This document shows positions 8,000 through 13,479 of a DNA stretch of 64,000 nucleotides, piece after piece. The position numbers were made by a program, and so were the translations under genes. The stretch covers positions 31,252-95,251 of the forward strand of contig JAFTWU010000001.1 of the NCBI GenBank assembly GCA_017465145.1. The letters are read 5' to 3'. The notes under the pieces were generated by a model, which was not told where the DNA came from, did not search any database, and saw only the letters and a program-made list of their open reading frames with translations. This DNA is from Clostridia bacterium. Lineage in GTDB: Bacteria > Bacillota > Clostridia > Christensenellales > Borkfalkiaceae. Positions within the stretch are counted from its first letter, which is position 1; each line of letters opens with the position of its first letter.

Positions 8000-8944
8000 T
8001 TAGTTAACGTCAGAACAAAGTGGGCCTGCAAGTTCTTTCATAAAGAACAATTTACCGGGGATTGTGGGAATCCAAGAAGAAGTTACGAATCTTGTGGGTT
8101 GATAACGTAAGGTCATCCAGAAACTCATACCTTGCCATTGCATACCACGGCCAAGAACACCGTCTGCACCGCCGATAGCGTAGTCTGCTTGGAACATAAG
8201 ACCAGGGCCCATAGTGTTAGCACGGCAAGGAACCATACTAGTACGACTACGGAAAGAAGTTAAAGCGTTTTGTTCAATGGTTAAGGGGTGTAATTTAGCA
8301 CCGATACGATAGGGTTGCTTTAACCATTCTTCATCGGTAGCAAATTCTGAACCGAATTGTGGTTCCCAGAAAGCGATGTGACACATTCTGCCGATACCGT
8401 AAACTAAAACAAGTTTAGCGCCTTCAGCCTTTAATGCTGCAATCTTTTCGGGGTAAGTGGGAAGATTTGCTTTGGTAGCAAAGTTTCTGTGGTCCTTAGG
8501 AACGGTAAGTTCGCCCAAAGGATTATAGAAAGCAGTTTCCATAGCGTTTTGGAAAGACGCTTCACCCGTGATGGTGTTGCCGTCTGCATCTGCCCATTCG
8601 TCCATGTTAAAGCACCAAACGTTTTTGCAAGATACGTTCCATTCTTTAAGGAAGTAAACTGCCCATTTGTACATACCCATAGGACCTACGGGAAGAATAA
8701 ACGCGATTTTTTCTTTACGTTCGTTTGCCTTTTTAATTTCGTTAGCGATTTCGTGACCCATTTTTACGTTGAATTCTTCTAAATCTTCGCATTGAACGGG
8801 GGTAAAATCTTTATTCCAAAATGCTTGGCGATCCAAAACGCTTTCGGGTGCGTTTGAACAGCACTTGTCTATCTTTTCAAAATCCCAACCTTCTGGGTAA
8901 AAACCTTCTAAAAGACTGCCTTTAACGGTAGAATTAAAATCCAT
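8000..8944 (-). CDS. NagB-like sugar-phosphate isomerase/deaminase with altered catalytic motif
   Basis: This 314-residue protein is clearly related to glucosamine-6-phosphate deaminase: [12 protein letters not shown] replaces the phosphate loop, NMDEW (114-117) matches the NMDEY motif, and [13 protein letters not shown] (183-195) matches GxGxDGHIAFNEP. His189 and Glu194 are retained, but the ring-opening aspartate of NagB is replaced by Met187. The protein is about 45 residues longer than NagB, mainly at the N-terminus. It is therefore probably a relative acting on a different amino-sugar phosphate or by a changed mechanism. It lies between the Gfo/Idh/MocA gene and the acetyltransferase in one operon. 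Confidence 0.8.
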
Positions 8945-11033: not shown

Positions 11034-11894
11034 TTATAAAACCTTTGACAAGAAGTCTTTTAACCTGTCGTTTTTGGGGTTAGAGAAAAACTCTGCGGGG
11101 GCAGATTCTTCTTTAATTCTACCTTCATCAATAAATACAACGCGGTCTGCAACTTCCCTTGCAAAACCCATTTCGTGAGTAACGATAACCATAGTCATAC
11201 CGTCTATTGCAAGTTGTTTCATAAGGTCTAAAACTTCGCCAACCATTTCGGGATCTAGCGCAGAAGTAGGTTCGTCAAAGAGCATTACGATGGGGTCCAT
11301 AGCAAGCGCACGAATAATTGCAATACGTTGTTTTTGACCGCCAGATAAGGTTGAAGGATAAGCGTTTGCCTTTTCTTCTAACCCGATGCGCTTTAAGAGA
11401 GCGTATGCTTTTTCTTCGTTAGCTTTTTTAATTTCCTTTTTCGTTTGCTTAATTTCTATTAAAGGTTTTTTGGCGTCTTTTTTTCTAAACAAATTTGCAA
11501 ATTTAATAAAGAAATTTTTGCATTTTGCCTTTCTTAAATTACCTAGTGCAACAACATTTGGCGCTAATGTAATATTTTTGATTATCGTAAGGTTGTTAAA
11601 AAGGTTAAATTGTTGGAAAACCATGCCGATTTTTTGGCGGTGAACGTTAATATCAACCTTTCGGTCAACAAGGTTTTCGCCTTGGAACATAATAACCCCA
11701 CCCGTTGGGTCTTCCATACAGTTTAAGCAACGCAAGAAAGTAGATTTACCGCAACCAGAAGGGCCTATAACGGCAACTACTTCCCCTTTTTTAACGTCGA
11801 TATCAATGCCCTTCAATACTTCAAGTTTATCGAAATTTTTGGTAAGATTTTTTACGGAAAGAACTATTTCATCACTTTTAATTTTTGCGTTCAT
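11034..11894 (-). CDS. Amino-acid ABC transporter ATP-binding protein with lysine-rich insertion
   Basis: This 286-residue ATPase has Walker [10 protein letters not shown] (44-52), Q-loop VFQQFNLF, signature LSGGQKQR (183-190), Walker [15 protein letters not shown] and the H-loop THEMGFA, all typical of the polar amino-acid GlnQ/HisP group. Members are usually about 240 residues. The extra length is a basic segment at about 118-155 between the Q-loop and signature, containing [16 protein letters not shown]. Its start overlaps the permease gene by 17 bases. Together with the permease and lipoprotein it forms an importer. Confidence 0.92.
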
Positions 11895-12588
11895 TCTTCT
11901 TTAACCTCCTTTCGATAAGTTTAACACCAATGGTAATGATTACTATTAGGACTATATAAATGAGTGCAAGAACTAAATACGGGATAAGGAAGGAATATGA
12001 CGCGTAACCGATTTGTTCAAATGCACGATATAGGTCAAGTACGGTAACAAAACTTGCTACTGACGTTTCTTTTACCAAAGTAATAAATTCATTACCAAGT
12101 GTTGGTATAATGTTTTTTATTGCTTGCGGAATTACTATTCTAAACATTGCAGTCCAAAAGGTTAATCCAACCGCTCTGCCGGCTTCTAATTGACCAACGT
12201 CTATCGACTGAATACCACCACGCATAATTTCTGAAACGTATGCACCGCTATTTAAGCCGAAAATTACTATTGCTTCAATAAGCGGATCACACGTCCAACC
12301 AATTAAGGGACGCAAAAAATAGTGTCCTACTAAGAGTTGAACTACCATAGGCGTACCGCGGAAAATTGCTACGTATACTACGGCAAACTTATCAAGTATT
12401 TTTGCAAAAAAATTGTACTTTGGCATTACCTTAATTATGGCAATAAACATACCTACGATTATACCAATAATAAGACCAAAGACGGCAATCTGAACGGTTG
12501 CACCTAAGCCACGTAAAACTTCTTTATAGCCACCCTTATCTATGAATTGGAAAGTAAAGGAATTCCAAAGTTTTGCCCAATCTATCAT
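11878..12588 (-). CDS. Amino-acid ABC transporter permease
   Basis: This 236-residue protein has about five membrane segments and the EAA loop ([22 protein letters not shown]) of HisM/GlnP-type permeases. The N-terminal part holds the conserved [10 protein letters not shown] and RGTPMVVQL stretches. It forms the membrane channel with the ATPase at 11034. Only one permease gene is present, so a homodimer is expected. Confidence 0.93.
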
Positions 12589-12657: not shown

Positions 12658-13479
12658 TTAACCGTTAGCGCAAAGTACTGCAAGGATATCCATTAAAACG
12701 CCAGCATCGTCTAACGCTTCGTTTTCCTCTAAGCATACGATTACTTGAGAGTTAGTATAATATGCATCGGTAAAGTTTATGTTTTCTTCACGGTCGTTAG
12801 TAATGGTAAGTGCTGCAATAGCCATATCGATACCATCTGTGCCTACTGAAGTAACAACTGCAGAGAAAGCCATATCAACGATTTCTAAGTTCATGCCAAG
12901 ATATTCTGCAAGAAGTTTAGCAACTTCCATATCAATACCATAGAAGTCTTCACCTTGCTTAAATTCAAAAGGTGCATATTCTGCGTTGGTTGCAATCTTT
13001 AAGGTTTCGGTTGCGCCTGTAACTTCTACGTTCTTAGGAACAGCAACGTAGTTTGCTTCATCACCCGTTAAATATTTGGTTTGAATAGCATTAATTTCTG
13101 CTGCCTTTTCAACGAAGAAAGCATTTACTTGAGCAAGTAATTCAGTTTGAGTTGAATCAACTGCCATACCGAAGAATTCTTCACCGGTAAGAGCAACGTC
13201 TATCATTTTAATACCTTCAATCTTATCAACAAGGTTTTGAGCAACTGCCTTATCGGTAACAACGTAATCAATAACGCCGTTTTGCATATCGGTAACTGCT
13301 AACGTGGGGCTTTGGTAAGCCTTTGCTTCAGTACCCTTTAAGTAAGATGCAAACATATAGCCGGTGGTACCGGTTTGAGCACCAATCTTAACGGTAGGAG
13401 TGTCGCTACAAGCAGTTAAGCCAAAGCAACCGCATACACATAAAACCGCTGCGAGAATTGCTGTTAAAAATTTTTTCAT
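12658..13479 (-). CDS. ABC transporter substrate-binding lipoprotein, apparently circularly permuted
   Basis: This 273-residue protein has a signal peptide ending in the lipobox LTAC (Cys24). Residues 30-140 resemble the normally later part of a family-3 binding protein: VKIGAQTGTTGYMFA, ITDMQNG-like helix, DYVVTDKAVA, and TELLAQVNAFF. Residues 158-255 resemble the normally first part: LKIATNAEYAPFEF, FYGIDMEVAKLLAEYLG, and AIAALTITNDREENINFTDAYY. The order is thus swapped relative to GlnH-type proteins. There is no internal stop or frameshift. The start at 13479 follows AAGGAGATATT. It should deliver a polar amino acid to the permease downstream. Confidence 0.85.
   Translation of the reverse strand: MKKFLTAILAAVLCVCGCFGLTACSDTPTVKIGAQTGTTGYMFASYLKGTEAKAYQSPTLAVTDMQNGVIDYVVTDKAVAQNLVDKIEGIKMIDVALTGEEFFGMAVDSTQTELLAQVNAFFVEKAAEINAIQTKYLTGDEANYVAVPKNVEVTGATETLKIATNAEYAPFEFKQGEDFYGIDMEVAKLLAEYLGMNLEIVDMAFSAVVTSVGTDGIDMAIAALTITNDREENINFTDAYYTNSQVIVCLEENEALDDAGVLMDILAVLCANG

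Follow-up and report, generated by a model that had tools for sequence, protein, structure and literature searches.

How a solute-binding lipoprotein can carry its two halves in reversed order, and whether such a protein is a true circular permutation, is the question raised by a gene on the minus strand at positions 12658..13479 of the window, the whole 64,000-nucleotide stretch of DNA from a Clostridia bacterium that was analysed here. The initial annotation had noticed that residues 30-140 resemble the second half of a family-3 amino-acid binding protein and residues 158-255 the first half, and had proposed that the protein is naturally circularly permuted while the ABC importer around it is an ordinary one. 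Such permutations are commonly viewed as infrequent, ancient events that set two protein families apart.

The window protein is a family-3 binding protein in rotated order

We named the parts of the canonical protein A (the N-terminal part), B (the lobe II core) and C (the return to lobe I and the C-terminal helices); the canonical order is then A-B-C and that of the window protein B-C-A. The Pfam model SBP_bac_3 (PF00497) gave a sole match, in which residues 160-254 aligned with profile positions 1-95 of 132 (88.2 bits, cut-off 26.4), and a match to PF10613 fell just under its cut-off (29 bits, cut-off 30). In a phmmer search against PDB sequences, AncQR (4zv1) aligned in two parts, chain residues 11-110 with residues 159-257 and chain residues 112-216 with residues 24-124. 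A canonical profile of 222 positions, made from 23 A-B-C sequences from outside the window's order, likewise gave two separate matches: its positions 106-220 aligned with residues 25-137 (65.5 bits), and its positions 3-101 with residues 157-254 (118.2 bits). When both pieces were swapped back, a single match to positions 3-220 was obtained (177.7 bits), and a doubled canonical profile aligned without a break to the protein in its natural order (173.9 bits). As controls for this profile test, three shuffled sequences and the reversed sequence scored approximately zero. The SBP_bac_3 parts of both lobes (positions 3-101 and 106-220 of 222) are all present, the only uncovered positions being 102-105, where the cut lies, and two at either end of the profile. 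Because the order was B-C-A by both phmmer and the profile, and not the canonical A-B-C, we filed the protein as a permuted SBP_bac_3 variant rather than as an ordinary member. Thus, the separate matches in reversed order confirm the assignment of the two halves, and the single full-length match after swapping shows that the protein is a genuine circularly permuted family-3 solute-binding protein (SBP).

The open reading frame encodes 273 amino acids. On the minus strand, it opens with a lipoprotein signal peptide and the lipobox LTAC (13408..13479), in which Cys24 is the predicted lipidated residue; the lipobox Cys column is invariant in a 13-sequence alignment of B-C-A proteins (A2). This Cys sits directly before segment B, in agreement with the earlier suggestion of a lipid anchor on the new N-terminus. 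Segment B (13216..13407), the canonical lobe II core, extends from KIGAQTGTTG to VVTDKAVAQNLVDKIE and was assigned from profile positions 106 onward and the AncQR alignment. It is followed by segment C (13060..13215), which comprises the last lobe II strand, the hinge 2 crossing and the C-terminal helices of canonical lobe I, with lobe names that we assume to carry over from GlnH; the canonical profile runs to position 220 at residue 137. A linker of approximately 19 residues (13009..13059; residues 138-156, without profile match) bridges the canonical C- and N-termini. Segment A (12712..13008), the canonical N-terminal part, runs from LKIATNAEYAPFEF to YYTNSQVIVCLEEN (PF00497 positions 1-95, profile positions 3-101). 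The last feature is a helix-like C-terminal tail, ALDDAGVLMDILAVLCANG (12661..12711), which was recognized from the A2 alignment and by eye; it lies outside the canonical profile match and by eye corresponds to the helix that connects A to B in relatives of C-A-B or A-B-C order. Residues 1-29 (13393-13479, minus strand), which include the signal peptide, are 69% identical to the signal peptide of the genome's canonical binding protein (L002 1474-2325), while the bodies of the two proteins match at only about 24-30%.

Such a difference shows that signal peptide and body can differ in history (69% versus about 24-30% identity), and it might be asked whether the body itself was assembled by fusing halves of two different binding proteins, with no rotation of a single one. 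However, the breakpoints match each other with nearly single-residue precision, and the three segments are similarly close in pairs of genes of different order, as in L112 (C-A-B) and L068 (A-B-C), for which the identity is 72% in A, 65% in B and 62% in C. We therefore consider lobe shuffling improbable, and rotation of one protein to be the better account.

Structure prediction with AlphaFold2 gave a pLDDT of 35.3 and a pTM of 0.23 for the window protein alone, and a pLDDT of 44.8 and a pTM of 0.47 with a two-sequence alignment of the window protein and a permuted relative, L165. A Foldseek search with this low-confidence two-sequence model (pLDDT 44.8) returned no match at E <= 0.001, and its best partial matches were SBP chains. 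The fold is presumably that of the family to which the segments align.

The permuted gene lies in an amino-acid importer operon

Directly downstream of the gene, also on the minus strand, are one gene for an amino-acid ABC permease (11878..12588; PF00528, with TIGR01726 above cut-off), presumed to form a homodimer, and a gene for an ABC ATPase (11034..11894; PF00005). SBP, permease and ATPase genes thus stand together as in polar amino-acid ABC importers, and the description of the system as otherwise ordinary holds. The ATPase is GlnQ/TcyN-like, being nearest to these two proteins at scores below their equivalog cut-offs, and has approximately 40 extra residues between the Q-loop and LSGGQ: 83 residues separate the Q-loop motif from LSGGQ, a count made on L001, which carries this gene too. 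Among 96 distinct ATPases in the loci, this spacing was 40-49 residues in 59, 80-89 in 19 and 161-162 in 9 (L097-L099, L101-L103, L105, L106 and L108).

The residues that we take to be the amino-acid contacts of GlnH, Arg75 and Asp157, align with Arg230 and Asp76 of the window protein, and both positions are invariant in the 13-sequence B-C-A alignment. By its permease and ATPase matches, the operon is that of a polar amino-acid importer, whose substrate would be an amino acid. Elsewhere in the window, an open reading frame at 8000-8944 (minus strand), which adjoins a GFO/IDH oxidoreductase and a PIG-L deacetylase, had no Pfam match at 0.001 and by eye resembles glucosamine-6-phosphate isomerase.

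Permuted genes recur across the bacterial order

The same order had been proposed as something to look for in related genomes. Near full-length relatives of the gene were found in seven other genomes (46-53% identity, E 5e-49 or better) among 201 genomes of the family, the window's included, and all seven (L004-L010) are B-C-A. The next 22 loci in this search (L011-L032) were C-A-B in all cases except L028, which is A-B-C.

Tandem SBP-permease fusions occur in related genomes, and the window gene could in principle be what is left of a degenerating tandem array of SBPs, no longer able to bind ligand. We regard this as very unlikely, because the protein holds each segment exactly once, its frame is open and its lipobox intact, the ligand-site residues are invariant in the 13 B-C-A sequences, and the gene has been kept nearly full length in the seven other family genomes at 46-53% identity. 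An open reading frame or assembly artefact, which might be suspected in a draft genome of 24 contigs, is ruled out by the B-C-A genes of the seven family members, by the same order in many other independent genomes and by a separate IMG/VR contig (L165).

We also searched 396 genomes of the order and 398 genomes of the phylum, each set including the window's own, with a profile (A1) built on the C-linker-A junction. A junction-spanning match was found in at least 72 of the 396 order genomes, a few of which have tandem or permease-fused proteins, and in at least 15 of the 33 sampled families, as counted by hand. In the phylum sample, at least nine genomes besides the window's own span the junction (hand count), two of them with tandem proteins (G696 and G854). 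When all loci collected up to that point were sorted by means of models for the three segments, 56 C-A-B, 46 B-C-A and 33 A-B-C distinct single genes were obtained, in a sample that is biased to the junction and hence enriched for permuted genes; the 46 include two genes, L088 and L153, that are really cut inside B.

A draw without junction bias was made by searching 51 genomes of the order with Pfam SBP_bac_3, which gave 86 single-copy genes above cut-off in frames of fewer than 450 residues. Eleven of these 86 genes, in 11 of the 51 genomes and with the window gene included, are permuted. Besides the window gene, 18 genes had a Pfam match that stopped early, and sorting showed that 8 of them begin with A and 10 are permuted (5 C-A-B, 3 B-C-A and 2 cut inside B, namely L214 and, by eye, L211). 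Of the remaining 67 genes, the 31 that were sorted all begin with A, and the other 36 were assumed to be canonical because their Pfam match was unbroken to position 118 or beyond. Permutation therefore recurs across the order, in the same and in other rotations, and is no lone oddity. Since relatives within the order show at least three rotations, the binding protein of an ordinary import system has been re-cut repeatedly.

Cut sites and predicted position of the anchor

When the canonical profile was compared with 167 genes having both A and C, 85 were clearly two-piece and rotated. Single-piece matches were given by 67 genes, comprising all 61 A-B-C and all 6 A-C genes, and 15 did not fit the strict two-piece rule (13 of 54 C-A-B, 1 of 45 B-C-A and the 1 C-A gene). 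The N-terminal starts of the 85 rotated genes fell at positions 90-119 (41 genes), 120-139 (3 genes) and 160-179 (41 genes). Start and end positions were close in L066 (98/97), L088 (131/130) and L112 (168/170), and less close in L202 (119/98) and L214 (131/123).

We mapped these positions on what we take to be the GlnH numbering, with hinges at 85-89 and 181-185 and lobe II at 90-180. On this basis, all three cut sites are probably inside lobe II and the joined original ends in lobe I, and the new ends of the window protein probably lie inside lobe II just past hinge 1, with both hinge-crossing strands retained. Cuts in lobe II together with joined ends in lobe I would keep both hinge crossings and shift the tether to lobe II. 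Hence, of the earlier expectation that anchor and hinge are both placed differently from those of GlnH, the part concerning the anchor stands, and the hinge would be expected to stay in place on the assumed numbering. A lipobox-like Cys ahead of the first segment, scored with a loose pattern, was present in 45 of 46 B-C-A, 54 of 56 C-A-B and 32 of 33 A-B-C genes; being frequent in all three orders, anchoring as such does not tell them apart.

Segment order has changed many times

On a tree of 131 genes (201 columns; 55 C-A-B, 44 B-C-A and 32 A-B-C; 34 open forks), at least 20 changes of order are needed, as compared to a minimum of 2, although gene transfer or recombination between paralogs could inflate this count. 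Changes forced by well supported branches alone number at least 5 for C-A-B, 4 for B-C-A and 7 for A-B-C. The window gene is paired with L004 (support 99/89) inside a six-gene B-C-A clade (100/99). Single origins of B-C-A and of C-A-B were rejected as one-clade constraints (p 3e-55 and p 9e-48, respectively).

Relatives differ in order. L032 (C-A-B) and L121 (A-B-C) are 70% identical over 197 columns, and in L048 (B-C-A) and L043 (C-A-B), which belong to one genus, the C-linker-A stretch is 65% identical. By eye, similar linkers are seen among C-A-B and B-C-A genes, and four A-B-C genes (L121, L127, L149 and L150) have a C-terminal tail that resembles the C-A-B linker. Such a tail is consistent with a change from C-A-B back to A-B-C, or with one in the opposite direction. 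The partner genes agree with this history: for 25 of 139 permeases, the closest related permease belongs with an SBP whose order label is different, both labels being plain A-B-C, B-C-A or C-A-B in 18 of the 25; the highest permease identity across orders is 79% (L043, C-A-B, versus L052, B-C-A).

Tandem and permease-fused forms

Several permuted SBPs are fused directly to a permease, some of them as tandem pairs or in adjacent genes. C-A-B-permease fusions were found in L019, L021, L027 and L056, and B-C-A-permease fusions in L067, L138, L139 and, twice, in L141 (1620-4722). Two B-C-A units precede the permease in L142 (1517-3802) and L145 (954-3290), and in L134 (2059-5628) a permuted SBP appears by eye to run on through permease and ATPase. 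L146 has the order A-B-C-A-B-C, followed by a permease-like stretch. In an unsystematic look among the loci, no direct relic of a tandem ancestor was noticed beside a permuted single gene. Among the best 60 of 208 matches of the junction profile in PDB sequences, the GlnP tandem 6h30 is the sole one to extend across the junction (profile positions 15-170, chain 187-332). The GlnPQ tandem SBD1-SBD2 shares the C-linker-A junction with the rotated genes, but consists of two canonical A-B-C domains in a row and not of one rotated domain.

Discussion

It is very probable that the window gene encodes a permuted SBP_bac_3 lipoprotein of a polar amino-acid ABC importer, which works like GlnH or ArtJ, is tethered through lobe II and belongs to a group that has been re-cut recurrently. 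In such a protein, the roughly 19-residue linker would connect the two canonical ends in lobe I, and the chain would be opened anew in lobe II. The lipid on Cys24 would tether the protein by a chain that leaves from lobe II instead of lobe I. On the simplest reading, which keeps the ordinary cycle of binding and delivery despite the re-routed chain, the protein would then close on an amino acid between the lobes, most likely as GlnH or ArtJ does, and dock on the homodimeric permease, powered by the ATPase. SBPs of the order have been re-cut again and again at three sites, probably all in lobe II, which yielded B-C-A, C-A-B and proteins cut inside B, all in the same type of importer operon. A likely route to rotation would be the fusion of a tandem copy followed by trimming. 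The data demonstrate that the protein is permuted, that the permutation is conserved and recurrent, and that the operon type is shared; the fold, the lobe bearing the anchor, the class of ligand and the tandem route are inferred. We are evenly divided on a broader proposal, namely that the amino-acid SBPs of the order rotate repeatedly and reversibly, with at least three new cuts in lobe II within conserved operons, and that this recurs because the tether, be it a lipid or a fused permease, moves from lobe I to lobe II and so alters how the SBP is presented to the permease.

GlnH, ArtJ, HisJ and AncQR (PF00497) share segments, ligand-site residues and importer type with the window protein, which differs from them in its rotated order, its predicted anchor next to lobe II and its linker-joined original ends. 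The parts and the importer are familiar, and the mechanism probably is too; the novelty lies in the recurrent rotation and in the anchor's predicted relocation to lobe II. In the open-access papers searched, we found no report of circular permutation in SBP_bac_3; the one natural circular permutation of an SBP recognized there, and the closest case, is Tp0684 (MglB-2) of Treponema pallidum, which belongs to another SBP family. Tp0684 is naturally circularly permuted and a tethered SBP of an ABC importer, for which the authors propose the name Cluster Bc (Type Ic) and raise a possible link to membrane anchoring (PMC4990184). It differs in having a type I sugar-binding fold class, permuted N-lobe strands and an added fourth hinge crossing, and one permuted topology is described for it (PMC4990184), versus the several rotations found here. 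The strong family matches of the window protein, and its PDB matches among the best 60 of 83, were all SBP_bac_3-type amino-acid SBPs, which places it outside Cluster Bc / Type Ic.

Among the proteins studied here, every cyclic order of one protein, together with a cut within a single segment, is found in relatives whose identity across orders reaches 70%, beside closely related permeases. Domain profiles can report permuted SBPs as partial matches. The cut sites, being naturally tolerated, are on offer for biosensor design.

In ionotropic glutamate receptors, the ligand-binding domain has membrane segments at the A/B boundary, so that the pore comes after A and before B-C. This related domain, the subject of the PF10613 match just under cut-off, resembles the B-C-A-permease fusions in having membrane segments at that boundary, but it is not rotated. 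A B-C-A lipoprotein and a permease-like open reading frame were also seen at 4638-5558 of L165, on an IMG/VR contig that by eye bears a terminase-like gene.
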